Assembly (NCBI GenBank): GCA_015233365.1
Contig: JADFXU010000008.1
Coordinates: 1 to 64,000, forward strand
DNA length: 64,000 nucleotides
Origin: Nitrospirota bacterium
GTDB lineage: Bacteria > Nitrospirota > Thermodesulfovibrionia > Thermodesulfovibrionales > Dissulfurispiraceae
Direction: 5' to 3'
A model generated the notes under the pieces. That model saw only the letters and a program-made list of their open reading frames with translations. It did no database searches and was not told the DNA's origin. The position numbers were made by a program, and so were the translations under genes. Below, in pieces: positions 2,396-15,789 of the stretch (position 1 is its first letter; each line of letters starts with the position of its first letter).

Positions 2396-2926
2396 ATGGG
2401 TAAAAAAATCCGCAGTCTGCTTTATATGATGATAATGGCCGGGGGTGTTGTTGTACTTTTAACTGCTGTAAACCGTCTGCCCTCCTCGATACAGAAAGGT
2501 TTTGCACGGCAATACGATTCTGTCGAGGAGGCAAAGCGATCGCTTGGTTTCGATAACATCTTTGTCCCGAGATATTTTCCCGAAGGCATATCCTGGCCGC
2601 CTTCCTTTATTTTCGGCCAGAAGGAACCTTATAGGGCGGTTGTGCTCGAATTCAGGGAAGCAAAAGCCGGAGGGACGGTGTTGATTGTCATCCAGACATC
2701 CCGGCGGGGCAGCGAATCGCAGCTTCAGAGGACAAGGTTGTCAGAACTGAAAGAAGATACCCCATATCGCCTTAAAGGAAGGATTGCCCGCCTCCAGGTC
2801 GGCACGTGTGATAAAGGGATTCCCTGCAGCAGGATATCGTGGCAGGACAGGGACCTTTACTTCACGGTCCTCTTTATGTCCTCTCCTTTCGAACTGATCA
2901 GAATAGCAGAAAGCATGATCCAATAG
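2396..2926 (+). CDS. Membrane-anchored hypothetical protein, partner of the M56 peptidase
   Basis: 176 aa, not recognised. One N-terminal membrane segment (about residues 6-24) is followed by a soluble, presumably periplasmic domain of about 150 residues with the features SVEEAKRSLGF and VPRYFPEGI. This start is reminiscent of small lipoprotein or DUF4367-type domains that follow an SVEEA... predicted segment, but I cannot assign a family with confidence. It lies 11 bases after the peptidase gene and is surely co-transcribed, so it may be the substrate or ligand-binding partner of the protease (inference). Confidence 0.65.
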   Translation: MGKKIRSLLYMMIMAGGVVVLLTAVNRLPSSIQKGFARQYDSVEEAKRSLGFDNIFVPRYFPEGISWPPSFIFGQKEPYRAVVLEFREAKAGGTVLIVIQTSRRGSESQLQRTRLSELKEDTPYRLKGRIARLQVGTCDKGIPCSRISWQDRDLYFTVLFMSSPFELIRIAESMIQ

Positions 2927-2928
2927 AC

Positions 2929-3036
2929 GGTCTCGTAAAAAGTCCATATGCTCTACCCCAAAAAGTTTATCAACTTTTCGGGGGCCCCGTTCCGCGACTC
3001 ACGCGCCTTGCCTATGAACTTTTTACGAAACCGTCC
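2929..3036. repeat. Dispersed imperfect inverted repeat with internal hairpin
   Basis: Outer arms: the stretch ending AAAAAGTCCATA (about 2929-2950) pairs with TATGAACTTTTTACGAAA and CCGTC (3013-3035) with two mismatches. Inside, CCCCAAAAAGTTTATCAACTTTTCGGGG (2956-2983) in pieces is itself a hairpin. Fragments recur in this window: TTTTTACGAAACCGTC at 18005-18020 and a 29-base inner segment at 7233-7261. It looks like a non-coding MITE- or REP-like element and may also end transcription of the upstream pair. Confidence 0.65.
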
Positions 3037-3049
3037 GTTTTTAGCTTAG

Positions 3050-3100
3050 TAGGATAAGTTTCCTATTTAAGTAGGTATATTTTCCTATGAAACTAGGAAA
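3050..3100. promoter_or_regulatory. Candidate operator: five alternating half-sites at exact 11-bp spacing
   Basis: TAGGA (3050), TCCTA (3061), TAGGT (3072), TCCTA (3083) and TAGGA (3094) alternate in orientation with start points exactly 11 bases apart, giving two copies of a 22-bp unit plus a half. TTTCCTA/TAGGAAA at 3081-3100 is a 7-bp palindrome with a 6-base spacer. The array sits 73 bases upstream of the first gene of the redox operon. A dimeric regulator binding on one face of the helix is inferred; the NarL-type regulator at 11160 is a candidate. Confidence 0.5.
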
Positions 3101-3172
3101 GACCCCCGATTTTCATTCCCCTTTCAGATTGTTATCATAAACTTAAGAAAACCAAAAAAGGAGGACTGGACA

Positions 3173-3556
3173 ATGATTACACACAGTCAGCAGTTGGACA
3201 AAGAGGGGATGGCATTCGTCACCAGCAGCGACGGACTTCGGGAAAAGTCTGATCAGCCCGCCGGGAAAAAGGGTTTGATGTCCGGACGGACGGCACTTAT
3301 TGTCCTCGGCATTTTTGGATTCGTGCTCTCGTTTGCATTCCCTTACGGAATGGGCTTGCTGGTCTTTGCCTGGGTAATTGCGCTTACAGGGGCACTCTGT
3401 GCAGTGGGAATAGCGTGCTTCAGCCTGTTAAAGGACCTGTTCGGCAGGACCGCTGCATTCGGTTATGCGCCTACCACGGCATACATGGCCGGTACAAAGA
3501 CAAAGAAGAGGACGAAAAAGGAATCCGCGGTCGAGGACAAGAAGGAGAAACAATAA
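3173..3556 (+). CDS. Unrecognised small membrane protein 1 of the redox operon
   Basis: 127 aa. About 40 polar N-terminal residues are followed by two close hydrophobic segments (roughly 42-62 and 66-92, rich in Gly/Ala/Phe) and a strongly basic C-terminal tail with TKTKKRTKKE and DKKEKQ. A strong ribosome site (GGAGGA) precedes the ATG. It is the first gene of the operon that encodes the cytochrome/NrfD complex. I know no family for it. The topology with both charged ends on the same side suggests an assembly or anchoring subunit with a cytoplasmic lysine-rich tail (inference). Confidence 0.75.
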   Translation: MITHSQQLDKEGMAFVTSSDGLREKSDQPAGKKGLMSGRTALIVLGIFGFVLSFAFPYGMGLLVFAWVIALTGALCAVGIACFSLLKDLFGRTAAFGYAPTTAYMAGTKTKKRTKKESAVEDKKEKQ

Positions 3557-3601
3557 AAGTGTACCGTGAAACACGCCGGAGATCCGGAAAGAGGTGCGGA
3601 A

Positions 3602-3979
3602 ATGGTCATGTATAAAGGTGGAACGCTTGTGGGAAAGGGATTGTACTGGAGCCCCATTGACGGCAGGCGAGTCGATGTGCAGGAGGATCGCAGGCTTCCG
3701 GGTGATGAAAACGCTCATTATCTGAGGATATCACCGTTAGGCCTGATTGCTATCGCTCCTCTCTTCGGAATGATGTATGTGGTTTTTCTGCCGCTCTTTG
3801 GGATAGGCGTATTCTGTATTTCATGGGTGGTCCCGGTTATCTTCACCCTGGCTTCAGCTGCTTCAACCGGTATCCGGGTTTGCAGCAGATTCGACGGCAG
3901 AAACGCATTTTTTAATTCTACTCCAGCGGGACCATCAAAGAAGAAATCTGGCGCTACCTTGGGTAGCCGTAAACAATAA
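3602..3979 (+). CDS. Unrecognised small membrane protein 2 of the redox operon
   Basis: 125 aa from the ATG at 3602, which has GAGG about 8 bases upstream; a GTG at 3566 is in frame but has no clear ribosome site. About 40 polar residues (with SPIDGRRVDVQEDRRLPGD) precede two hydrophobic segments (about 42-62 and 64-85). The C-terminus is basic (GPSKKKSG, SRKQ). The layout of soluble head, membrane hairpin and lysine-rich tail matches the genes on either side although the sequences differ. It belongs to the redox operon by spacing and strand. Function unknown. Confidence 0.7.
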   Translation: MVMYKGGTLVGKGLYWSPIDGRRVDVQEDRRLPGDENAHYLRISPLGLIAIAPLFGMMYVVFLPLFGIGVFCISWVVPVIFTLASAASTGIRVCSRFDGRNAFFNSTPAGPSKKKSGATLGSRKQ

Positions 3980-3994
3980 GCCGGGAGGCATTGT

Positions 3995-4366
3995 ATGCAT
4001 ACGCTTTTCGATTTTATCACTAATGTAAATGCGGCACAGTATGGGTTTTCGCTTTTTTCCATCCTGGGCTTTATCGTCTTTTATCACATACTGAAGCCGA
4101 AGCCTTTCAAGGGATTGCTGGAATCGGCGGCCGATGAAGCCAGATTTATCAGGACCCAGGACAGAGGGTATATCTTGCAAATCGTCAGAAACATTGCAAT
4201 GGCTCCGGTATACTTGATGATTTATCTCGTGTCTCTGCCCCTTCTCTTTATCCTGGGTGCGGTCGCGCCGCGGGCAACGGTGATGTCGGGAGAATGGAGT
4301 CCTGTACGCGCCTATTTTATGGGTAGCCGGAAATCCAGGAAGTCCAGGGGGAGCAAGAAGGGATGA
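3995..4366 (+). CDS. Unrecognised small membrane protein 3 of the redox operon
   Basis: 123 aa. A hydrophobic segment at about 17-33 is followed by a soluble loop (with DEARFIRTQDRGYI), a second hydrophobic stretch at about 68-92 and a very basic C-terminus (GSRKSRKSRGSKKG). GGGAGG lies 10 bases before the ATG. The stop overlaps the ATG of the next gene, a five-haem cytochrome (ATGA, 4363-4366), so translation is coupled and a shared complex is likely. No family recognised. Confidence 0.72.
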   Translation: MHTLFDFITNVNAAQYGFSLFSILGFIVFYHILKPKPFKGLLESAADEARFIRTQDRGYILQIVRNIAMAPVYLMIYLVSLPLLFILGAVAPRATVMSGEWSPVRAYFMGSRKSRKSRGSKKG

Positions 4367-4821
4367 AAAAGCATATCGAAAAAGCCCCGTCGCTGCTTGC
4401 CTGCGTTGTCCTTGGTTTGGTTGCGGTCGCAGCGGGGTCGCCGTCATGGGGCGACGTGAAGAAGATACCTGATGTCATCATCCTCAAAGATATCCAGAAC
4501 AGGTACGGACCTGTCACTTTCGACCATAAGAAGCACACAACTCTGGCGGAAAATTGCGGAATATGCCACCACACTCATGCAAAAAAGACGTATGAGACAT
4601 GCGGCGATTGCCACACTCAGGCCGCTAAAATTTTAAAAGCGGCGGCGAACGGTATGCTTATGCCATGCAGCGGCTGTCATGGAGAGTATTCACCTGAGAC
4701 GCCGGGAATGCCCGATCTCAAGGTCGCTCTTCACAAGAAATGCTTCACGTGCCACGTGGGCATGGGAGACTTAGGTGAATCACCCATGGGCTGCGTTAAT
4801 ACATGCCATACCAGGAAATGA
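4363..4821 (+). CDS. Periplasmic class III-like multihaem cytochrome c (five haem motifs)
   Basis: 152 aa. An N-terminal signal peptide (hydrophobic core LLACVVLGLVAVAAGS) directs export. Haem motifs in order: CGICH, CGDCH, CSGCH, CFTCH and, at the end, CVNTCH, a CX3CH variant. The phrase VTFDHKKHTTL before the first motif is the distal-histidine segment typical of cytochrome c3/c7-type proteins, which are electron shuttles or the haem subunit of membrane complexes such as DsrJ or Tmc. The gene overlaps the preceding small membrane protein and lies 28 bases before the Fe-S protein. Likely role: periplasmic electron entry or exit point of the complex. Confidence 0.88.
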   Translation: MKKHIEKAPSLLACVVLGLVAVAAGSPSWGDVKKIPDVIILKDIQNRYGPVTFDHKKHTTLAENCGICHHTHAKKTYETCGDCHTQAAKILKAAANGMLMPCSGCHGEYSPETPGMPDLKVALHKKCFTCHVGMGDLGESPMGCVNTCHTRK

Positions 4822-4849
4822 GCATATGAAAAAGAAGGAGGTCATATTT

Positions 4850-5827
4850 ATGTCAGACAGTAAGAGGCCCGAGCCGCCGGAAGGCCCCATGTGTCTCACC
4901 AGGCGGAGCTTTCTTTCCATATCAGTGTTGGCAGGGGCCGCCGCCCTTGGTACACCCGCTATTGCCCGTTCCGCCCAGGGCCAGGGCTCCCCTGAGTTCA
5001 AGGGTTGGCCGAAAAGTTATGGAATGCTGACGGATTTCACCGCATGCGTAGGGTGCAGGAGCTGTGAAAAGGCATGCAATGAAGCCAACCGGATGCCGGC
5101 ACCTGAAAAGCCGTTTGATGACGCGTCGGTATTCGAAGAGAGCCGTTGGCCTTCCGCCACTGCCTATACCGTTGTTAACCGCTACAAAAATTCCGCGGAC
5201 TCTTCCAGGCCCCTGTTCCGGAAGATTCAGTGCAACCATTGTCTGGAGCCGGCATGCGCCACCGCATGCCCTATACATGCTTACACAAAAACCCCGGAAG
5301 GGGCTGTTATATACAATAAAGACTTATGTTTCGGCTGCAGGTACTGTGTTGTTGCGTGCCCATTTAACATTCCGGCCTATGATTATAGCAGCCCCCTCGA
5401 TGCAAAGATTGTAAAATGCATTTTATGTTTCGGGAGGATTAAAGAAGGTAAAATACCGGCCTGCGCCGAGGCCTGCCCTGCAGGGGCCCTCACTTTCGGC
5501 AGGAGGGCGGATCTGCTTAAATTGGCGAGAAAAAGAATAATAGACAGCCCTGAAAAATACATAGATCATATTTATGGTGAGCGCGAAGTTGGGGGCACTT
5601 CCTGGCTCTATCTTTCAGGTGTGCCGTTTGAACAGCTGGGTTTTCCAACTAACCTTCCGGAAAAGCCCCTGATCGAGCTTTCCAAGGGTTATTTATCCAC
5701 TGTTCCGGTGATCTTCACTACGTTTCCGGCGATCTTCGGCATGGTATATGCCGTGATGCGCCATAACGAGCGGGCGGCAGGCAAAGAAGAACGGTCGAAG
5801 CAGCATAAGGAGGTGGATCATGAGTAA
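4850..5827 (+). CDS. TAT-exported 4Fe-4S ferredoxin subunit (HybA/DsrO/HmcB type)
   Basis: 325 aa from the ATG at 4850, which has GGAGG 8 bases upstream. A twin-arginine signal (LTRRSFLSISVLAGAAALG) marks export in folded form. Four cysteine sets carry four [4Fe-4S] clusters: CVGCRSCEKAC, CNHCLEPACATAC, CFGCRYCVVAC and the wider CILC...CAEAC. A C-terminal hydrophobic stretch (VPVIFTTFPAIFGMVYAVM) would tether it to the membrane beside the NrfD-type subunit, as in HybA. It is the electron wire between the periplasmic cytochromes and the quinol module. The gene ends inside the start of the next (8-base overlap). Confidence 0.92.
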   Translation: MSDSKRPEPPEGPMCLTRRSFLSISVLAGAAALGTPAIARSAQGQGSPEFKGWPKSYGMLTDFTACVGCRSCEKACNEANRMPAPEKPFDDASVFEESRWPSATAYTVVNRYKNSADSSRPLFRKIQCNHCLEPACATACPIHAYTKTPEGAVIYNKDLCFGCRYCVVACPFNIPAYDYSSPLDAKIVKCILCFGRIKEGKIPACAEACPAGALTFGRRADLLKLARKRIIDSPEKYIDHIYGEREVGGTSWLYLSGVPFEQLGFPTNLPEKPLIELSKGYLSTVPVIFTTFPAIFGMVYAVMRHNERAAGKEERSKQHKEVDHE

Positions 5828-7076
5828 CAGCATTCAGGACGCATCGCAAACTTCCTCCACTTCCGGCGAATTTCGGGTCTGGTTCATGAACAAGCTGTTT
5901 ATGGGTATGAGCGTTGAGGACTATGCCCGGTCCCTTGCGACCCCTTTCAACCTCGCGAGCCTGCTTATACTTATGGTCTCGGTGCCGGTTTTTTTCATGC
6001 GGTACACACGGGGACTTGCATCTGTAATTGACGGAACGAATGCATACCCGTGGGGAATCCTGCTGAGCTGGGGAATCTTTGCGAGTGAGCCAATGTATGC
6101 AGCAGGATTCGTAGTGGCTGCGGCATATTACCTGTTTGGAATGAAATCCTACCGGCCATTTGTTCGTATTGCCGTACTGGGGGGCATGTTAGGGTATATT
6201 TTTGCCGCCTCTTATCTTCTTATTGACCTGGGACGGCCGTGGCGTATTTATTACCCCATGCTCATCAACTTCGGAACATCTTCAATCCTTTTCATAGTGG
6301 CATGGCATGTCTCTCTTTACATTACGGTGCAGCTTTTAGAGTTCTCTCCCGCCCTTCTGGAGTGGCTGGAAGCCAGGAGACTGCACAAGTGGGCGGTTTC
6401 CGGGACCGTGGGTCTTATTATCGGCGGCGTCATCCTCTCGACCGTGCACCAGTCGGCATTGGGCGCATTGTATCTCCTGACCCCCGGCAAGGTCCATCCT
6501 TTGTGGTACTCTGGACAACTTCCCCTGCTGTTCTTCAGTTCGGCTGTTTATACCGCAATGTCCTTTGCGCTGCTGCTTGTCTTTGTCGCCGTGCGCTATT
6601 TCAAAGGCGGGTGCGACGCGGAGTTCCTCAACGGCGCTACCGCGCTGACTCTGGGATTGGGCAAAGGAGCAGCTCTGGCGATGTATGTTTATTTCGCACT
6701 CAAGATCCTTGCCCTCGCACAGGACAACCGGTGGGGACTACTGTTTACTCCATACGGATACTGGTATCTCGTGGAGTTGCTTGGTTTTGTGGCAATACCT
6801 ATGGTAATTTTCACAATCGGAGTCAAGCTCGAAAAGACCGGGCTGGTCCGGTTCGCGGCGCTGTATGCTGTAGCCGGGACAGTGCTCAACAGGGTCAACG
6901 TCAATATAATAACTTTCAATTGGTACCTGCCCGATCATCTTCACCACATAATTCCTCCATGGACGGAGATCACGATGGTTCTGGCAATGGTTACGATACA
7001 GGTGCTTGTTTTCAGATGGATAATGAACAGGTTCCCGGTTACTCGTGAACTGCCCGAATACAAAGGCACACACTGA
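5820..7076 (+). CDS. NrfD/HybB/PsrC-type integral membrane quinol-interacting subunit
   Basis: 418 aa with about ten hydrophobic segments, the length and topology of the long HybB/HmcC-type branch. Recognisable family features are the NAYPWGILLSWGIF segment and the DLGRPWR motif after the fourth helix, which line the quinol site and the proposed proton path. GGAGG lies directly upstream of the ATG at 5820. With the Fe-S protein before it and the 13-haem cytochrome after it the set matches Hmc/Nhc/Ohc complexes, which pass electrons between the menaquinone pool and periplasmic cytochromes. Direction of flow cannot be told from sequence. Confidence 0.92.
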   Translation: MSNSIQDASQTSSTSGEFRVWFMNKLFMGMSVEDYARSLATPFNLASLLILMVSVPVFFMRYTRGLASVIDGTNAYPWGILLSWGIFASEPMYAAGFVVAAAYYLFGMKSYRPFVRIAVLGGMLGYIFAASYLLIDLGRPWRIYYPMLINFGTSSILFIVAWHVSLYITVQLLEFSPALLEWLEARRLHKWAVSGTVGLIIGGVILSTVHQSALGALYLLTPGKVHPLWYSGQLPLLFFSSAVYTAMSFALLLVFVAVRYFKGGCDAEFLNGATALTLGLGKGAALAMYVYFALKILALAQDNRWGLLFTPYGYWYLVELLGFVAIPMVIFTIGVKLEKTGLVRFAALYAVAGTVLNRVNVNIITFNWYLPDHLHHIIPPWTEITMVLAMVTIQVLVFRWIMNRFPVTRELPEYKGTH

Positions 7077-7110
7077 AAAGGACAGGCTATGGGCAAATGG
7101 CTGCAGGCAA

Positions 7111-8631
7111 ATGGAAACGGTAATCAATAACAAGTCAGGCCGGATGGGAGTTGCTGCGTATATCGTATGTACTGCTCTCCTTGTCTGTTTTGCGCTTCCG
7201 GGTCAGCCTTCTTTTGCCGCCTCGGAGCAGGGTCCCCGGAAAGTTGATAAACTTTTTGGGGCGGAAGGTAATGCAGACGAGGACGAAAGGAATCAGTGCC
7301 TTAAGTGCCACGGTGAAAAAGGGTCGATAAAGAAATTCCCTGACGGAGATTTCATTTCGACTTATGTTGATCCCCAGGCTTTTACTTCGTCGGTACACAG
7401 ATCTCTCCGGTGCACCGCGTGCCATAAGGAGTTCTCTCTACAGCACCATCCGGAGCGGTCATTCAGGAACAAGCTTCAGTACCGGATAAAGGAGTCTCAT
7501 GTCTGCAGGGACTGCCATAAAGAAGGGACCATCAAGTCAGTGGCAGTCCATGAGTCCCTGTTCAGGAAAGAAAGGGCGGGAGAGGCAGTCGTCTGCACCA
7601 ATTGCCACAGCGCTCATGCCGTCACCCCTGCCGTGGGCGGCAACGCATCGACCGGGGAGGAGAAGTATTGCCTCCGTTGCCACTCCCGGGAAACAAAGAT
7701 GGATTTCAACGACAAGGAGTGTATCTCATTGCGCGTGAACATAGCCGAACTCCGGAATTCACCTCATAAGAACATGGGCTGTTCGGATTGCCACTTCGGC
7801 TTTTCCCAGGAGAACCATCCGCAGAGAAGGTTCAGGTACGAACGGGAATACAGGATTTCATCCGCAGAGATGTGCAGGAAGTGCCATTTCGACAAGTATT
7901 CGAAGGTCTCTGAAAGCATCCACTATAATATGCTTAGCACAGGGAGGCTGGACGCTCCTACATGCATTGATTGCCACGGAGGGCACGCTGTTTCATCCCT
8001 CGGCGACAACAGGGCCCTGGCTGTGATGAAATGCAGGAAGTGCCATGGTGAAGTTTACGATACTTACGCTAAGAGCGTTCACGGCAAGGCACTGTTGAAC
8101 GCGAACAATAAAGACGTACCGATCTGTATCGACTGCCATTCGTCTCACAGTATAAAGAACCCCTCCTCATCGGCTTTCCATGATTACATACCGGAAATGT
8201 GCGGCAAGTGTCATTCGAACCCGACCCTCATGGGGAAATACGGCCTGTCCACGGATGTGGTAAAGACCTATCTCTCGGATTTCCACGGCATGACCCTCGG
8301 CCTCCAGCGTAAGGAGGCCTCGAAGGGATACCGGCCTGATCCGCCTATGGCTGTATGCACGGATTGCCACGGTACGCACGAGATAGCCGGTGTTCTAGGG
8401 GCGGACGTGCAGGTTTTGAAGGACAAGTTGCTGAAGAGGTGCCAGAAATGCCACAGCAACGCGACCTCAAACTTCCCGGATGCGTGGCTTTCCCATTATA
8501 AACCGAGTCTCAGGGTGGCGCCTCTGGTTTTTATAGCGGAACAGTTTTATAAGATCATAATGCCGCTAATGGTGGTGGGGCTGCTGTTCCAGGTACTGCT
8601 GCAGATCTGGCGATACCTGGCGAACAGGTAG
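7111..8631 (+). CDS. Membrane-anchored 13-haem cytochrome c
   Basis: 506 aa from the ATG at 7111. A signal peptide (about residues 12-37) is followed by thirteen CXXCH motifs: CLKCH, CTACH, CRDCH, CTNCH, CLRCH, CSDCH, CRKCH, CIDCH, CRKCH, CIDCH, CGKCH, CTDCH and CQKCH. One C-terminal hydrophobic segment (about residues 475-500, with IIMPLMVVGLLFQVLLQI) anchors it. This is the haem-rich subunit of an Hmc-type complex. Just after the signal peptide, bases 7233-7261 match 27 of 29 bases of the dispersed repeat at 2956-2984, so codons for GPRKVDKLFG seem to be repeat-derived. An alternative start at 7144 would shorten the leader. The gene follows NrfD after 34 bases. Confidence 0.9.
   Translation: METVINNKSGRMGVAAYIVCTALLVCFALPGQPSFAASEQGPRKVDKLFGAEGNADEDERNQCLKCHGEKGSIKKFPDGDFISTYVDPQAFTSSVHRSLRCTACHKEFSLQHHPERSFRNKLQYRIKESHVCRDCHKEGTIKSVAVHESLFRKERAGEAVVCTNCHSAHAVTPAVGGNASTGEEKYCLRCHSRETKMDFNDKECISLRVNIAELRNSPHKNMGCSDCHFGFSQENHPQRRFRYEREYRISSAEMCRKCHFDKYSKVSESIHYNMLSTGRLDAPTCIDCHGGHAVSSLGDNRALAVMKCRKCHGEVYDTYAKSVHGKALLNANNKDVPICIDCHSSHSIKNPSSSAFHDYIPEMCGKCHSNPTLMGKYGLSTDVVKTYLSDFHGMTLGLQRKEASKGYRPDPPMAVCTDCHGTHEIAGVLGADVQVLKDKLLKRCQKCHSNATSNFPDAWLSHYKPSLRVAPLVFIAEQFYKIIMPLMVVGLLFQVLLQIWRYLANR
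7233..7261 (+). repeat. Dispersed-repeat fragment inside the cytochrome gene
   Basis: These 29 bases match the reverse complement of 2956-2984 at 27 positions, including the run AAAGTTGATAAACTTTTTGG. The segment is palindromic in the source element. It lies in frame just downstream of the signal-peptide region, where sequence constraint is low. Confidence 0.6.
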
Positions 8632-8642
8632 GAGAGGATACC

Positions 8643-9293
8643 ATGGAGTCGGGTAATTTATCAGCCGGCGAAGAAAGATTCAGAAAGTTCAGCGTGTACC
8701 GGATCGTCGAGCACCTGGCGTTGATTGCCTGTTTTACGGTCCTGGCAATGACAGGGCTCCCGCAGAAGTTTTACTCCCTTGGTATTTCGCAGTTGATCAT
8801 TACTTCGCTCGGGGGTATCGATAGCGTAAGGTCCATTCACCATGTCGCTGCCGCGATTTTTACGGTGCTGGCCTTGCAGCACATAATCACGGCATTTATC
8901 GGTGTTGTTTTCCTGCAGTGGGAGCCATCAATGCTTATCGCTGTGAAAGATATCCATGATGCGCTGCATAATGTCAAATATTGTCTGGGGATGGCCGGCC
9001 GGCCGGCGATGAGCGGCAGGTATAACTACAAGGAAAAATTTGTCTATTGGTTCATCCTCCTCGGTGGCGTACAGATGATTGCCACCGGGTTCATCCTCTG
9101 GTTCCCGGTTATAGCTGCGAATTATCTTCCGGGACAATTCATACCGGTCTCAAAGGTCATCCACACTAATGACGCTATGCTGATTTTCCTTCTGACAGCC
9201 ATATGGCATATATATGATTCCATATTCAACCCGGAGGTATTTCCGCTTGATAAAAGCATATTTACCGGAATGAAGAAAACAACCCGGACCTGA
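8643..9293 (+). CDS. Cytochrome b subunit (formate dehydrogenase gamma/b561 type)
   Basis: 216 aa with four hydrophobic segments (about 23-43, 63-87, 130-158 and 172-192). Histidines in RIVEHLALIACF, SIHHVAAAIF, the LQHII turn, the HTND segment and TAIWHIYDS are placed to ligate two haems b, as in FdhI/HydC-type subunits. GGAG precedes the ATG, and the gene starts 11 bases after the 13-haem cytochrome. It completes the membrane complex by linking haem b and the quinone pool. It is the last structural gene of the operon; the sensor kinase follows after 56 bases. Confidence 0.87.
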   Translation: MESGNLSAGEERFRKFSVYRIVEHLALIACFTVLAMTGLPQKFYSLGISQLIITSLGGIDSVRSIHHVAAAIFTVLALQHIITAFIGVVFLQWEPSMLIAVKDIHDALHNVKYCLGMAGRPAMSGRYNYKEKFVYWFILLGGVQMIATGFILWFPVIAANYLPGQFIPVSKVIHTNDAMLIFLLTAIWHIYDSIFNPEVFPLDKSIFTGMKKTTRT

Positions 9294-9349: not shown

Positions 9350-11167
9350 ATGCAAAAAAAGATAATTATTGCCATAATTTTTTATGTTATCGTCATAATG
9401 GTCACGCTCGGCATAATCAGCGACCTTGCAGTCAATGAAAGTATCAAAAGCTCACTGCAGAACAGGCTTGCCCTTGCCAGAACCATAGCCAACAATGTCG
9501 ATTTCTTTCTGCAGCGCAATCTGGGCAAGCTTGAGGATGTGTCCAACTCAGGCAAAATTAATCTAAGGGACAGTGACATGCGGTCAAAGGAAAGGATACT
9601 CGAAACCATTTACAGGTATTCGCTTTTTACCGACGGCGTATTTCTCCTTGATGAGCACGGCAATGAAGTGATGACCTATCCGCCGCGCTTTGGGTATTTT
9701 TCGAATCTCACCTACATCAACGATGTGAACCGGGTGCTTCGGGATGGACGACCGGTAATCTCCAACGTCTATACAGTCGAACCCATCAAAAAGAAAGTGA
9801 TATTCATAATGGCGCCGCTGAAGGACGGCGAAGGGAAGATCAGCGGCGTTGTAGGCGGCATACTCGGCCCGGCGGACCATTTTGTCAATATGCTTCTGAA
9901 GAGCGGTAAGGTGGGAAGCAACAGTTATATAGAACTGATCGACTCCAATGAAATTGTGCTTGCTTCGGATAATCCTTCGCGCCTGTTCCAGCACCACGAC
10001 CATGAAGGTATGTTGGGCAGGATGATATTGGAAGGCAGGGATGGAATCCTGGAATGCAGGCATGGTTTTTCTCATCCTGATGCCGAGAAGAAACCGGTTG
10101 ACCGTCTTGCCTTTGTTCCCCTGAGCACAGCCAAATGGGGTGTAATAGTCGGGCAGGACGAGAGAGATATCTTTGGCCCTGCTATCGGTCTCAAGCGAAT
10201 GTTCTTCGTGCTTGTGTTCATATTCATCGGCACGTCTCTTGTTTTTTCGATCGGCATAAGCATGAGCATAGTCAAGCCGCTCAGATCGTTGATGTCCTCC
10301 ACAAACAAGATAGCTTCAGGCGATCTTTTAACGCCGGTGGGGAAACTTGGCGGTGATGAGATTCTGATGCTCAGCAAAAGCATCGATGACATGAGGAAAA
10401 AACTCGCAGAATCAGTTGAGAGCATAAAGAACCAGAATATAGAACTGGAAGACCGGGTAGCGGAGAGGACCGGACAGATAAGGGAAAGCAGGAGGCAGGT
10501 CAAGCACCTGCTGAAAAAGGTCATTTCGTCCCAGGAAGAAGAGCGGACAAGAATAGCCCGGGGCATTCATGATACCATACTTCAGGACTTGTCGGCCTTT
10601 TTGATAAAACTGGACATATGCAGATTGCAGCCTGATCGGGTTACAATAGGAAAAATAGACGAAATGAGGAACATTGTGATCGAAACCATGGATAATGTCC
10701 ATAGTGTCATCAAGGACCTGAGGCCTTCTATTCTTGACGATTTTGGAATAGATGCGTCCATTACCTGGCTGATGAAAAATCATCTTGCGGAAAAGGGCAT
10801 TAATTTTTACTTTGATGTGGATTTTCCGGACGAAAGAAGGCTGTCTCCGGAGGTTGAAATTACATTGTTCAGGATACTTCAGGAGGCCATTATCAACATA
10901 AAACGCCATGCAAATGCAGAAAATGTTTTTGTTTCCCTCGAAGTTGGAGACGCTTTTATAGAAATTTCCGTTGAGGATGACGGCTGCGGCTTCGATGTTG
11001 ATAAATTAATGGGTCATCCCGTCGAAGGAGGCAGGGGATTGGGGATAATCGGGATGAAGGAAAGGGCGTCGCTATTGGGAGGAAACTTGTTTGTTTATAC
11101 GAAGCCTGGATGGGGAACAAGAATATGCATGCAGATTCCGCTGAATGGCACGGTGGAAGATGTCTAA
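9350..11167 (+). CDS. NarL-family sensor histidine kinase with periplasmic Cache-type sensor
   Basis: 605 aa. Order: membrane segment (about 4-27), periplasmic dCache-like sensor (to about 280), second membrane segment (about 283-305), HAMP, a short coiled coil, a HisKA_3 domain with the phospho-accepting His407 in ERTRIARGIHDTIL, and a HATPase domain with EDDGCGFD and the GRGLGIIGMKER G-box. This is the layout of sensors that pair with NarL/FixJ regulators, and such a regulator follows with an 8-base overlap. Placed directly behind the redox operon, the pair probably reports an electron donor, acceptor or small organic acid and tunes that operon (inference from position). Confidence 0.92.
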   Translation: MQKKIIIAIIFYVIVIMVTLGIISDLAVNESIKSSLQNRLALARTIANNVDFFLQRNLGKLEDVSNSGKINLRDSDMRSKERILETIYRYSLFTDGVFLLDEHGNEVMTYPPRFGYFSNLTYINDVNRVLRDGRPVISNVYTVEPIKKKVIFIMAPLKDGEGKISGVVGGILGPADHFVNMLLKSGKVGSNSYIELIDSNEIVLASDNPSRLFQHHDHEGMLGRMILEGRDGILECRHGFSHPDAEKKPVDRLAFVPLSTAKWGVIVGQDERDIFGPAIGLKRMFFVLVFIFIGTSLVFSIGISMSIVKPLRSLMSSTNKIASGDLLTPVGKLGGDEILMLSKSIDDMRKKLAESVESIKNQNIELEDRVAERTGQIRESRRQVKHLLKKVISSQEEERTRIARGIHDTILQDLSAFLIKLDICRLQPDRVTIGKIDEMRNIVIETMDNVHSVIKDLRPSILDDFGIDASITWLMKNHLAEKGINFYFDVDFPDERRLSPEVEITLFRILQEAIINIKRHANAENVFVSLEVGDAFIEISVEDDGCGFDVDKLMGHPVEGGRGLGIIGMKERASLLGGNLFVYTKPGWGTRICMQIPLNGTVEDV

Positions 11168-11819
11168 GATACGCGTATTGATCGCTGATGACCACGCGCT
11201 TGTCAGGGAGGGGATAGTCGCATTTCTGAAGTTCTGCGATGACATTGAGGTTGTCGGCGAGGCGTCCGACGGTATCGAAGTGGTTGAACGGGCTATTAAA
11301 CTGAGACCCGAAATCGTTCTGATGGACATAGGTATGCCCAGGCTTGGCGGCCTTGAGGCCACAGTAGAACTTAAAAAAACAGACCCGGACATAAAGATCA
11401 TAGTACTTACCCAATATGATGACAAGGAGTATATCTCCCGTTTTCTGAAGGCAGGCGTTTCCGGGTATATACTTAAGAAGGCGGTGGGCAGCGAACTGGT
11501 CAATGCCATTCGCGCGGTGCACAGAGGGGAGTTTTATCTGTTTTCTTCCATAGCTTCGGAAGTTGTGGCCGGTTATCTTGACAAGCGCAAGTCGCCTGCT
11601 GAAGACGAGTCGTACGAAAAGCTGACCGACAGGGAACATCAGGTGCTCAAGCTGATAGCAGACGGGTGCAGCCACAAGGAGATAGCACGCTGCCTCAATA
11701 TCAGCGTAAAGACAGTGGCATCTCACCAGACAAACATCTCCGAAAAACTTGGCATCCATTCCCGCACGGCACTTGTCAAATTTGCTATTCAGAAAGGGAT
11801 AATAAAACTTGAAAAGTGA
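11160..11819 (+). CDS. NarL/FixJ-family response regulator
   Basis: 219 aa from the ATG at 11160. The receiver domain has the acidic pair in LIADDHALVREGI, the phospho-accepting Asp56 (LMDIGMP) and the conserved Lys in LKKAV. The C-terminal LuxR-type HTH (LTDREHQVLKLIADGCSHKEI...SVKTVASHQTNI) is intact. It is the partner of the sensor kinase whose 3' end it overlaps. NarL-type dimers commonly bind short half-sites near one helical turn apart, which makes the array at 3050-3098 a reasonable target (inference). Confidence 0.93.
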   Translation: MSKIRVLIADDHALVREGIVAFLKFCDDIEVVGEASDGIEVVERAIKLRPEIVLMDIGMPRLGGLEATVELKKTDPDIKIIVLTQYDDKEYISRFLKAGVSGYILKKAVGSELVNAIRAVHRGEFYLFSSIASEVVAGYLDKRKSPAEDESYEKLTDREHQVLKLIADGCSHKEIARCLNISVKTVASHQTNISEKLGIHSRTALVKFAIQKGIIKLEK

Positions 11820-12317: not shown

Positions 12318-13208
12318 ATGAAGGTATTAGTCGCTGATACATCTGCCTCAACCAGGAAAGAGCTTGGCCCGATCCTCGAGAACGAAGGGTATCTGTGCTG
12401 CTTCACGAAACGCGGCAGTGATATCATCGAGTGTGTTTACCGCGAGTCTCCCGATGTTGTTTTTCTCCCTACGAATTCCCATTATCAGCAGAGCCTTAAG
12501 ATATTGGTAAAGCTCAAATCTGCGCCATCTACTCGTGACATTCCCGTAATACTTATCGCTGCAAACAGAGCACGCAAGACGCTGGCAAAGGGGTTTCAGT
12601 TGGGTGCATACGATTATATTTCCCCGCCTTACTTCAAAGAAGAGGTGCTGGCGCGGATCCGCAATATCATTCACATCAGGAACAAGACAAAAGAACTTGA
12701 GTTTATGATGGACCGGGACTATCTGACCGGACTCTATAACCGGAACTATTTCATGGCCAGACTGATCGAGGAGTTGTCATGGTCTATGAGCTACAAGGAG
12801 CCTCTCTCACTCATGATGCTCGACATAGACTTTTTCAAGAAAGTCAATGACACTTACGGCCACCGCTGTGGAGATGAAGTTTTGAGAAAAATTGCGGATT
12901 GTCTGTCGTCCACTGCACGGAGAGAGGACATTGTAGGCAGATATGGGGGGGAAGAATTCATTATTCTGATGTCAAACGCCTCTCTTGATGACGCTCTTGT
13001 GCTTGGAGAGAAACTGCGTAAAGCGGTAATGAGTGAGAAGTTTTCTCTTGAGTTGCCCAATATGTTTTCCGTCACCATCAGTATAGGAATAACTACTTTC
13101 ACCGATATAAACGAGCAGTCTACCGATGTGCTTATAGGGCAGGCTGACAAAGCACTTTACGCGGCAAAAGAAGGTGGAAGAAACAGGATCTGCGTTTACG
13201 GAAAATAG
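12318..13208 (+). CDS. Diguanylate cyclase with degenerate receiver domain
   Basis: 296 aa. Residues 1-118 fold like a CheY receiver (MKVLVADTSAS start, AYDYISPPYFKEE end), but the phospho-acceptor position after the third strand reads DVVFLPTN, with Pro51 where Asp is expected, and the N-terminal acidic pair is reduced to one Asp. The GGDEF domain is intact: DYLTGLYNR, DIDFFKKVND, GGEEF at 210-214, and an RXXD inhibitory I-site (RRED, 201-204). It should make cyclic di-GMP with product inhibition, while control by phosphorylation looks lost. It stands alone, 82 bases after the thioesterase gene. Confidence 0.9.
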   Translation: MKVLVADTSASTRKELGPILENEGYLCCFTKRGSDIIECVYRESPDVVFLPTNSHYQQSLKILVKLKSAPSTRDIPVILIAANRARKTLAKGFQLGAYDYISPPYFKEEVLARIRNIIHIRNKTKELEFMMDRDYLTGLYNRNYFMARLIEELSWSMSYKEPLSLMMLDIDFFKKVNDTYGHRCGDEVLRKIADCLSSTARREDIVGRYGGEEFIILMSNASLDDALVLGEKLRKAVMSEKFSLELPNMFSVTISIGITTFTDINEQSTDVLIGQADKALYAAKEGGRNRICVYGK

Positions 13209-13246
13209 GCGCCCCCCTTCTCCTGCCGTGACCATTATCCCCGCTC

Positions 13247-13276
13247 TTGTCAACGTTTCTGATGTGAGTATATAAT
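13247..13276 (+). promoter_or_regulatory. Sigma-70-type promoter of the dehydratase gene
   Basis: TTGTCA at 13247-13252 and TATAAT at 13271-13276 are 18 bases apart, 34 bases before the ATG at 13310. A GGAGG site lies between. Confidence 0.6.
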
Positions 13277-13309
13277 ACATATTCAACATATACGACTCCT
13301 GGAGGTAAC

Positions 13310-14569
13310 ATGACCATTACAGAGAAGATCCTTGCAGTTCATGCCGGGAAAAAGTCAGTTTCAGCCGGCGAATTAATGAATGCGAAGGTTGATCTTGTCC
13401 TTGCTAATGATATCACGGCGCCTATTGCGATAACCGAATTCAAAAAGACAGGGGCGAAGCGTGTCTTTGACAAGGAGCGTATTGCACTTGTGCCTGACCA
13501 TTTTACCCCGCAGAAGGACATTAAGGCAGCGGAACAGTGCAAACTGCTGAGGGAATTTTCAAAAGAACAGGACCTGGACCTGTATTTCGAAGTTGGAAGA
13601 ATGGGCATAGAGCATGCATTCCTTCCTGAACAGGGACTTGTCGGTCCCGGCGATCTGGTGATCGGCGCCGACAGCCACACCTGTACTTACGGGGCGCTTG
13701 GCGCCTTCGCAACCGGGGTCGGCTCTACTGATGTCGCTGCCGCCATGGCAACCGGGGAATGCTGGTTCAAGGTCCCCGAATCCATGAAATTCATATACTA
13801 CGGGAAACTCAACAAATGGGTGAGTGGAAAGGATCTTATTCTGCATACTATTGGGGACATAGGTGTTGACGGGGCATTATACAGGGCCATGGAATTTGAG
13901 GGAGAAGCGATCAGGACTCTTCCCATGTCAGGCAGACTTACTATGTGTAACATGGCGATAGAGGCCGGCGGAAAAAACGGCATCATTGTCCCCGATGCGA
14001 TAACCGAGGAGTACGTGAAGGGAAGGGCAAGGCGGCCATATACCTTCTATAAGACTGACACGGATGCGCGTTATGTGGAAATAAAGGATTACGACTGCTC
14101 CCGCATTCCGCTGACTGTGGCATGTCCGCACCTGCCTTCAAATGCAAAACCTGCGGCAGAACTTTCACATATTACTATCGATCAGGTAGTCGTGGGCTCA
14201 TGCACAAACGGACGGCTCGAGGACTTGAGGGAGGCTGCCCGGATACTGAAGGGCAGAAAGGTCAATCCTAATGTCAGGATGATCATATTCCCGGCTACGC
14301 AACAGATTTACAGGCAGGCGATGAAGGAAGGTCTTTTGGATATCTTCATCGAAGCTGAAGCAGCGGTTTCAACGCCTACCTGCGGGCCATGCCTGGGCGG
14401 GCATATGGGCGTTCTTGCCAAAGGCGAAAGGGCACTGGCAACCACCAACAGGAATTTTGTGGGCAGGATGGGCCACCCTGAGAGCGAAGTGTATCTCTCT
14501 AACCCTGCTGTTGCGGCCGCAACAGCCGTGCTCGGGAAAATAGGCACGCCGGAAGAATTGGGGCTGTAA
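13310..14569 (+). CDS. leuC: 3-isopropylmalate/homoaconitate dehydratase large subunit (LeuC/AksD type)
   Basis: 419 aa, the length of the short archaeal/anaerobe-type LeuC branch. The [4Fe-4S] cluster cysteines lie in VVGSCTNGR and in [11 protein letters not shown]; the early [20 protein letters not shown] motif is the conserved aconitase-family active-site segment. It isomerises 2- to 3-isopropylmalate (leucine) or acts on homologous 2-hydroxy acids. The small subunit LeuD is not adjacent, so the exact substrate cannot be read from context. GGAGG precedes the ATG. Its stop shares a base with the ATG of glgC. Confidence 0.88.
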
Positions 14570-15789
14570 TGGCTCATCCGAAGGTTCTTGCTTTAATTCT
14601 TGCAGGAGGAAAAGGCGAGCGGCTTTTCCCTCTTACCGTTTTCCGCTCCAAGCCGTCGGTCCCGTTCGGAGGCAGGTACCGCATTGCAGACTTTGTGCTC
14701 AGTAATTTTGTTAATTCCCATATTTATTCAATCTATCTTCTTGTCCAGTACAAGTCCCAGTCCCTTATAGAGCATGTCAGGACCAACTGGAATTTCTCCT
14801 CCATAGTAAAGGACCATTTTGTCGCTGTCGTTCCTCCCCAGATGAAGATGGGGCCCGAGTGGTTCCAGGGCACGTCCGATGCGGTCTATCAGAATATTAA
14901 TCTTATCAAGGACCACAATACCGATCTTGTGATCATTTTCGGTGCCGATCATATTTACAGGATGGATATCAGACAGATGATCGACTTCCACCTGAGCAAC
15001 GACGCCTATGTTACTGTGGCTGCCCGTCCTGTGCCGGTCGAACAGGCCCAGGCCTTCGGCGTCATTAAGACGGATACAGAAAAACGCATAACCGGATTCC
15101 AGGAGAAACCCAAAAATCCTGCCCCCATGCCCGATGATCCTTCACGGGCCTACGTGTCGATGGGTAATTATATATTCAGGACGGATGTGCTCGTTGACGT
15201 CCTCGTGAAGGCGCAGCAAAAGAAACAGCATGACTTCGGTGCACATATCATACCTAAGCTCGTGGACACCCGGAAAGTTTTTGCATATGATTTCGCGACC
15301 AACATAATTCCGGGCTCGAAACCTTATGAGGAAAAAGGCTACTGGCGGGATGTGGGAACAATAAGCGCCTATTTCAATGCCCACATGGATTTGCTGAGCG
15401 AAACCCCGCCTTTTGATACTCACAACACTCAATGGGCCATCCACCCTTCGGGGTATGAAGGACCATCGACCAGGATATTCGATGGCCACATAATGAACAG
15501 TCTGATAGCTGAAGGCTCGACCATCAAGCAAGCGAAGATACGAAATTCCATTATCCGGAGCGGTGTTACCATCGAGGAAGGCGCAGACATAGACGAGTGC
15601 ATCATAATGAACAGGGTGACAGTTAGTAAAGGATGCAAACTCCGCAGGGTGATCGTGGATAAACTGAATGTAATCAGGGCCGGCGAACAAATCGGATTCA
15701 ATCAGGACAAGGACCGTTTCAGGTGTCACATCGACCAGTCCTCCGGTATTGCCATCATTCCGCGGGGCGGAAGGATCGCGCATCCCTAA
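14569..15789 (+). CDS. glgC: Glucose-1-phosphate adenylyltransferase
   Basis: 406 aa, normal length. The nucleotidyltransferase signature LILAGGKGERLFPLT is followed by FGGRYRIADFVLSN and the FGADHIYRMD metal site; the C-terminal part has left-handed beta-helix hexapeptides (GSTIKQAKIRNSIIRSGVTI). It makes ADP-glucose for glycogen synthesis and is usually activated by glycolytic intermediates. No other glycogen gene is adjacent. The one-base overlap with the dehydratase gene indicates co-transcription of functionally unrelated genes. Confidence 0.93.
   Translation: MAHPKVLALILAGGKGERLFPLTVFRSKPSVPFGGRYRIADFVLSNFVNSHIYSIYLLVQYKSQSLIEHVRTNWNFSSIVKDHFVAVVPPQMKMGPEWFQGTSDAVYQNINLIKDHNTDLVIIFGADHIYRMDIRQMIDFHLSNDAYVTVAARPVPVEQAQAFGVIKTDTEKRITGFQEKPKNPAPMPDDPSRAYVSMGNYIFRTDVLVDVLVKAQQKKQHDFGAHIIPKLVDTRKVFAYDFATNIIPGSKPYEEKGYWRDVGTISAYFNAHMDLLSETPPFDTHNTQWAIHPSGYEGPSTRIFDGHIMNSLIAEGSTIKQAKIRNSIIRSGVTIEEGADIDECIIMNRVTVSKGCKLRRVIVDKLNVIRAGEQIGFNQDKDRFRCHIDQSSGIAIIPRGGRIAHP

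Follow-up and report, generated by a model that had tools for sequence, protein, structure and literature searches.

The stretch of DNA analysed here (the window, 64,000 nucleotides from the Nitrospirota contig JADFXU010000008.1) carries an electron-transfer operon with a short array of repeated half-sites ahead of it. The operon is tightly packed, and the order of its genes is conserved in relatives. The array, the promoter elements and the genes are listed below; site centres are counted from the predicted transcription start.

3050–3065, + strand, distal inverted pair TAGGA-N6-TCCTA (TAGGATAAGTTTCCTA), a predicted dimer site seen in the sequence, centre about −87.5
3072–3087, + strand, middle inverted pair TAGGT-N6-TCCTA (TAGGTATATTTTCCTA), a predicted dimer site, centre about −65.5; aligned to model R1
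3094–3109, + strand, proximal inverted pair TAGGA-N6-CCCGA with a degenerate second half, a predicted dimer site, centre about −43.5
3110–3115, + strand, weak −35-like hexamer TTTTCA from a promoter scan, directly 3' of the proximal site, with a 17-bp spacer to the −10
3130–3138, + strand, extended −10 element TGtTATCAT, from conservation, its fixed distance to the array and a promoter scan
3145, + strand, predicted transcription start, a conserved A 7 bp past the −10 (A in 28 of 34 sites)
3173–3556, + strand, first operon gene, a small membrane protein (no Pfam or NCBIfam match)
3566–3979, + strand, second small membrane protein of the same type (start codon uncertain)
3995–4366, + strand, third small membrane protein of the same type
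4363–4821, + strand, class III-type c cytochrome (PF02085)
4847–5827, + strand, HmcB-like 4Fe-4S protein (PF13247; best NCBIfam match HmcB, under cut-off; start approximate)
5820–7076, + strand, NrfD/HmcC-like membrane subunit (PF03916; HmcC under cut-off)
7045–8631, + strand, multiheme c cytochrome (PF14522, PF14537; start may be 7108)
8643–9293, + strand, cytochrome b subunit (PF01292)
9350–11167, + strand, sensor histidine kinase (dCache, HAMP, HisKA_3, HATPase)
11145–11819, + strand, NarL/FixJ-family response regulator (PF00072, PF00196), which co-occurs with the array and is its proposed ligand

The small membrane proteins at the head of the operon (3173–4366) are tandem paralogues with the motifs YWN.STGERV, GP..GLLY..FLPFIG and FGWRPSEAYLAGKK. 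The family as a whole has no match in Pfam or NCBIfam, and it is also seen at the loci L208, L225, L227, L228, L230, L237, L239, L240 and L246. The genes that follow resemble the Hmc complex of sulfate reducers: in NCBIfam, HmcB and HmcC are the best matches of the FeS and NrfD-type subunits, and a multiheme cytochrome is present as well. The scores lie below the cut-offs for Hmc membership (399 against 420 bits for HmcB, 370 against 550 bits for HmcC), and unlike the Hmc complex the operon includes small membrane proteins, a cytochrome b and an integral two-component system. Upstream of the array, nearly all relatives have an M56 (BlaR1-like) peptidase (at 1368 in the window) and a second conserved small protein (2390–2923). 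No BlaI-type repressor gene was seen beside these two genes.

Read directly from the sequence, the array consists of TAGGA (3050–3054), TCCTA (3061–3065), TAGGT (3072–3076), TCCTA (3083–3087) and TAGGA (3094–3098), half-sites that alternate in orientation and start exactly 11 bp apart. The original prediction had described five TAGGA/TCCTA half-sites in steps of 11 bp. Positions, alternation and spacing stand, but the third half-site is TAGGT, a single mismatch that leaves the array with 24 of 25 letters, and there are six half-sites rather than five. The sixth, a degenerate CCCGA (3105–3109), extends the series and aligns with the strongly conserved TTCCAATT of relatives, so that the window holds three pairs of dimer size. 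The claim that such an array is unlikely by chance is borne out by simulation. In 200 first-order Markov windows of 64 kb each, the best five-unit array scored 15–19 of 25, a maximum of 19 against the real 24, and at other spacings (7 to 21 bp) the top score in the real window was 18. The window's own genome (2.18 Mb, about 81% complete) was searched both by pattern and by model. A 17-mer put forward with the original prediction was uninformative in the window, where it matched 5 times against 5.9 expected with three mismatches allowed, and at the genome level it had fewer matches than its reversed control. The array model from relatives gave this locus as its sole convincing match in the genome.

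In relatives, which were taken from whole-genome searches and a GTDB scan, the array occupies the equivalent gap before this operon, with flanking bases that drift. Comparison of this gap thus finds the half-sites conserved in relatives that keep the operon, as would be expected from the original prediction. At 34 loci the sequences align around the array almost gap-free, in the same position and phase, and conservation reaches up to 2 bits in the array and is about 0 in the flanks. The consensus of these loci reads TAGGA-AAAATT-TCC, then AAATAGGAAnTTCTTCCAATTnT, followed by an extended −10 (tgnTAtnnT) and, around the start, a conserved region rich in A. Across relatives the proximal pair is the best conserved (consensus AATAGGAAnTTCTTCCAATT), and the upstream (distal) pair is only partially conserved. 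The window is slightly atypical in this respect, with strong upstream units and a weak second half-site in the proximal one. The array is real and deeply conserved, and its conservation argues that it is functional.

In the window itself, the pairing of half-sites is ambiguous because they lie 11 bp apart in both directions. The register analysis, which covered 75 distinct sites, found a constant TAGGA-to-TCC distance within the proximal pair (60/60 and 69/69 scorable pairs by two rules), whereas from pair to pair most sites have a gap of 11 or 12 bp, with an occasional 10. As the internal distance is fixed and the distance between pairs is slack, the rigid unit is the inward pair TAGGA-N6-TCCTA. 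The exact 11-bp phasing emphasised in the original prediction therefore holds for the window but not for relatives, which have 10–12 bp between pairs and are rigid only within the TAGGA-N6-TCC pair. From unit to unit, the period is exactly 22 bp in the window and mostly 22–23 bp in relatives. The best reading of the array is as a series of head-to-head dimer sites about 22 bp apart, and the pairs have the features of an inverted-repeat operator of dimer size near a core promoter (16-bp pairs, invariant internal spacing, a proximal pair adjoining the −35). The first two T of the −35-like hexamer are nearly invariant in relatives, the T and A of the −10 are kept in 32/34 of them, and the distance from array to −10 is fixed in 65/74 sites. 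With a start at 3145, the unit centres would fall at about −43.5, −65.5 and −87.5, placing the nearest dimer site against the −35.

Several known systems have comparable sites. In E. coli, NarL sites are 16-bp 7-2-7 inverted repeats, TACCCCTAAAGGGGTA (PMC4549865), and a single NarL site with its centre at −44.5, −66.5 or −77.5 gives activation (PMC9314961). The regulator encoded at 11145 is likewise of the NarL/FixJ family, the array pair TAGGATAAGTTTCCTA can be read as inverted 7-bp half-sites with 2 bp between them (16 bp), and the predicted centres at −43.5 and −65.5 are close to NarL's −44.5 and −66.5. The differences are a half-site of TAGGA rather than TACCC, units stacked every 22–23 bp, and a dCache sensor in place of NarX/NarQ; in the NarL equivalog test the regulator reaches 151.5 bits against a cut-off of 250. 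In Bordetella, three head-to-head dimers of BvgA line one face of the fha promoter with a 22-bp period; the nearest of them abuts the −35, and the primary site is TAAGAAATTTCCTA (PMC7250471). The two cases have in common a NarL-family regulator, a similar half-site and dimer sites that recur about every 22 bp, with the nearest against the −35. BvgA heptads, however, are adjacent (14 bp), whereas 2 bp separate those of the array (16 bp); the array's secondary sites are conserved in sequence, and organism, sensor and target genes are unrelated. A third case is the ACTU motif of the LuxR-type response regulator CrbR in Pseudomonas, an inverted repeat at −52 to −36 that was first found by a cross-species motif search (PMC5715377). 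It also lies immediately before the core promoter, but there is one site per promoter, the sequence is different and the targets are acetate genes. By its letters and spacing, the array combines the internal spacing of NarL with the stacking of BvgA and a BvgA-like half-site, and is neither a NarL site proper nor a BvgA site. The earlier statement that no known motif has this form thus needs qualifying, as the array resembles the NarL 7-2-7 repeat and the 22-bp dimer series of BvgA, although the array itself appears undescribed. The part of the literature on Nitrospirota, Hmc-type operons and NreC-like TAGGG sites that was covered yielded no description of the array, and the main text of a Desulfovibrio response-regulator target map has no mention of hmc and no matching motif.

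The regulator at 11145 has a receiver domain and a GerE/LuxR-type helix-turn-helix, with PF00072 and PF00196 both above cut-off, and the full-length structures of VraR, NarL and DesR match it by sequence; the PDB has ample coverage of this regulator family. In 121 genomes of the order, its orthologue (E ≤1e-60, 43 genomes) and a clear array (E ≤1e-3, 41 genomes) occur together in 40, and 77 genomes have neither, 3 the regulator only and 1 the array only. The Fisher p of 3e-27 for these 121 genomes overstates the evidence, because the genomes are related and relatedness is uncorrected. Two of the three genomes with the regulator only have a degenerate site at the right place, and in the third the contig lacks the operon start; in the genome with the array only, the operon is cut off by the contig end. 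The array is absent from 51 other loci found by protein searches, mainly HmcB/NrfD homologues of other operons. The original prediction had pointed to the NarL-type regulator, and it is indeed the best candidate, being the sole DNA-binding protein detected in the operon and co-occurring with the array across the 121 genomes.

The main reading, to which we give a probability of roughly 85%, is that the phosphorylated NarL-type regulator encoded at 11145 binds the array, which serves the promoter of the electron-transfer operon as its activator site. Very probably it is the operon's own regulator that binds the array, as stacked pairs beside the promoter. Going by its family, the dCache histidine kinase (9350) would sense a signal and phosphorylate the regulator, which in turn would bind the TAGGA-N6-TCCTA units as head-to-head dimers, one monomer per helical turn. 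The geometry is read from the sequence and would let dimers about 22 bp apart stack on one DNA face; cooperativity between them, like binding and activation, would be in keeping with the family. The nearest dimer, at about −43.5 and touching the weak −35, would recruit RNA polymerase to the conserved extended −10. As the operon itself encodes kinase and regulator, positive self-regulation of the circuit is to be expected. Counting against this reading, the window's proximal half-site, CCCGA, is degenerate, and a regulon in the window's own genome finds no support from a second site.

It is also conceivable, though unlikely, that some unlinked factor (another NarL-type or a one-component regulator) binds the array and that the kinase-regulator pair of the operon acts elsewhere. 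The co-occurrence may in part reflect inheritance of the operon, because the regulator shares the operon with the site in most genomes, and NarL-type paralogues are common, with dozens of candidate stretches per genome at first look. Against this, no DNA-binding protein besides the NarL-type regulator was detected in the operon with Pfam and NCBIfam, and the size, symmetry and position of the array suit a dimer of the NarL family. The regulator is single-copy at the orthologue threshold used, and its recognition-helix region (consensus near KTVIAHQTN) is conserved across orthologues. Furthermore, the array stays with the kinase-regulator pair both in shorter operons, from which the FeS and NrfD subunits are missing, and when the pair is encoded on the other strand. 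L078 is an example: there kinase and regulator (12905–15399) run towards the operon from the opposite strand, and the operon promoter still has the array.

That the sites repress, with dimers beside or over the −35 blocking RNA polymerase until phosphorylation changes, is rather improbable. The proximal dimer site does abut the −35, but it does not cover the core promoter, and the −35 is weak, as it is in activated promoters. NarL is a repressor at some promoters (PMC4549865), but the centres near −43.5 and −65.5 match the positions −44.5, −66.5 and −77.5 from which it activates (PMC9314961). There is very little likelihood that the array acts as an RNA or as a site of chromosome architecture instead of an operator. 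Its inverted repeats could form hairpins, but the array is upstream of both the predicted start and the conserved −10, from which its distance is fixed, and so would not be transcribed from this promoter; on this location the RNA reading was set aside.

Next to the array is a dispersed, MITE-like repeat of about 110 bp (2926–3035) with 18-bp inverted ends, GACGGTCTCGTAAAAAGT at 2926–2943 and ACTTTTTACGAAACCGTC at 3018–3035, present in about 30 copies in the 2.18-Mb genome. An origin of the array as a by-product of this repeat, a concern already raised with the original prediction, or by chance was rejected as wildly improbable: the repeat copy does stop only 15 bp upstream of the array, but 10 loci at other copies have no array (scores 13–14 of 25), relatives keep the array at the aligned position where the flanking sequence does not align, and the simulated maximum of 19/25 speaks against chance.

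The activator site proposed here may serve more than one operon. In the genomes of some relatives there are extra sites in trans, ahead of genes for small membrane proteins and multiheme cytochromes; these were left out of the training set of the array model. At about half of the 23 trans loci that were read, the first gene encodes a small membrane protein of the operon's family, which is the most frequent trans target, and several loci have a multiheme cytochrome, its N-terminus formed by the same hydrophobic segment. In the multiheme cytochromes behind the trans sites at L227, L235, L236, L242 and L247, this segment resembles the core of the small membrane proteins, and it looks as if it were a membrane anchor common to both. 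Apart from G100, every genome that these trans loci come from has the regulator orthologue. At L239 and L246, in two genomes, a trans site and its small membrane protein gene are closely followed by genes for PII (glnB-like) and glutamine synthetase. Since the site lies ahead of unlinked small membrane protein and multiheme cytochrome genes in several relatives, it appears to mark a small regulon. No second site was found in the window's own genome (about 81% complete), so the regulon there is without second-site support. In a phylum sample of 198 genomes, clear arrays turn up in the window's order, in a single further genome of its class and in one more distant family.

The regulon is apparently undescribed, but of a known kind, that of NarL-family two-component operators. 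We see about an even chance that the array is the signature of such a two-component regulon in several Nitrospirota lineages, in which the regulator, as a helically phased series of 7-2-7 dimers, controls transmembrane electron-transfer modules together with the small membrane protein family. The array would be a natural case of 7-2-7 spacing and 22-bp dimer stacking joined in one promoter. For the electron-transfer operon of these mostly uncultured Nitrospirota it gives a candidate operator, a promoter geometry and a cognate two-component system, and the motif, which predicts trans targets, also suggests that the small membrane protein family belongs to the same response. If this is true, targets could be predicted from DNA alone in bacteria that are mostly uncultured, and a regulon would be defined in a little-studied phylum.
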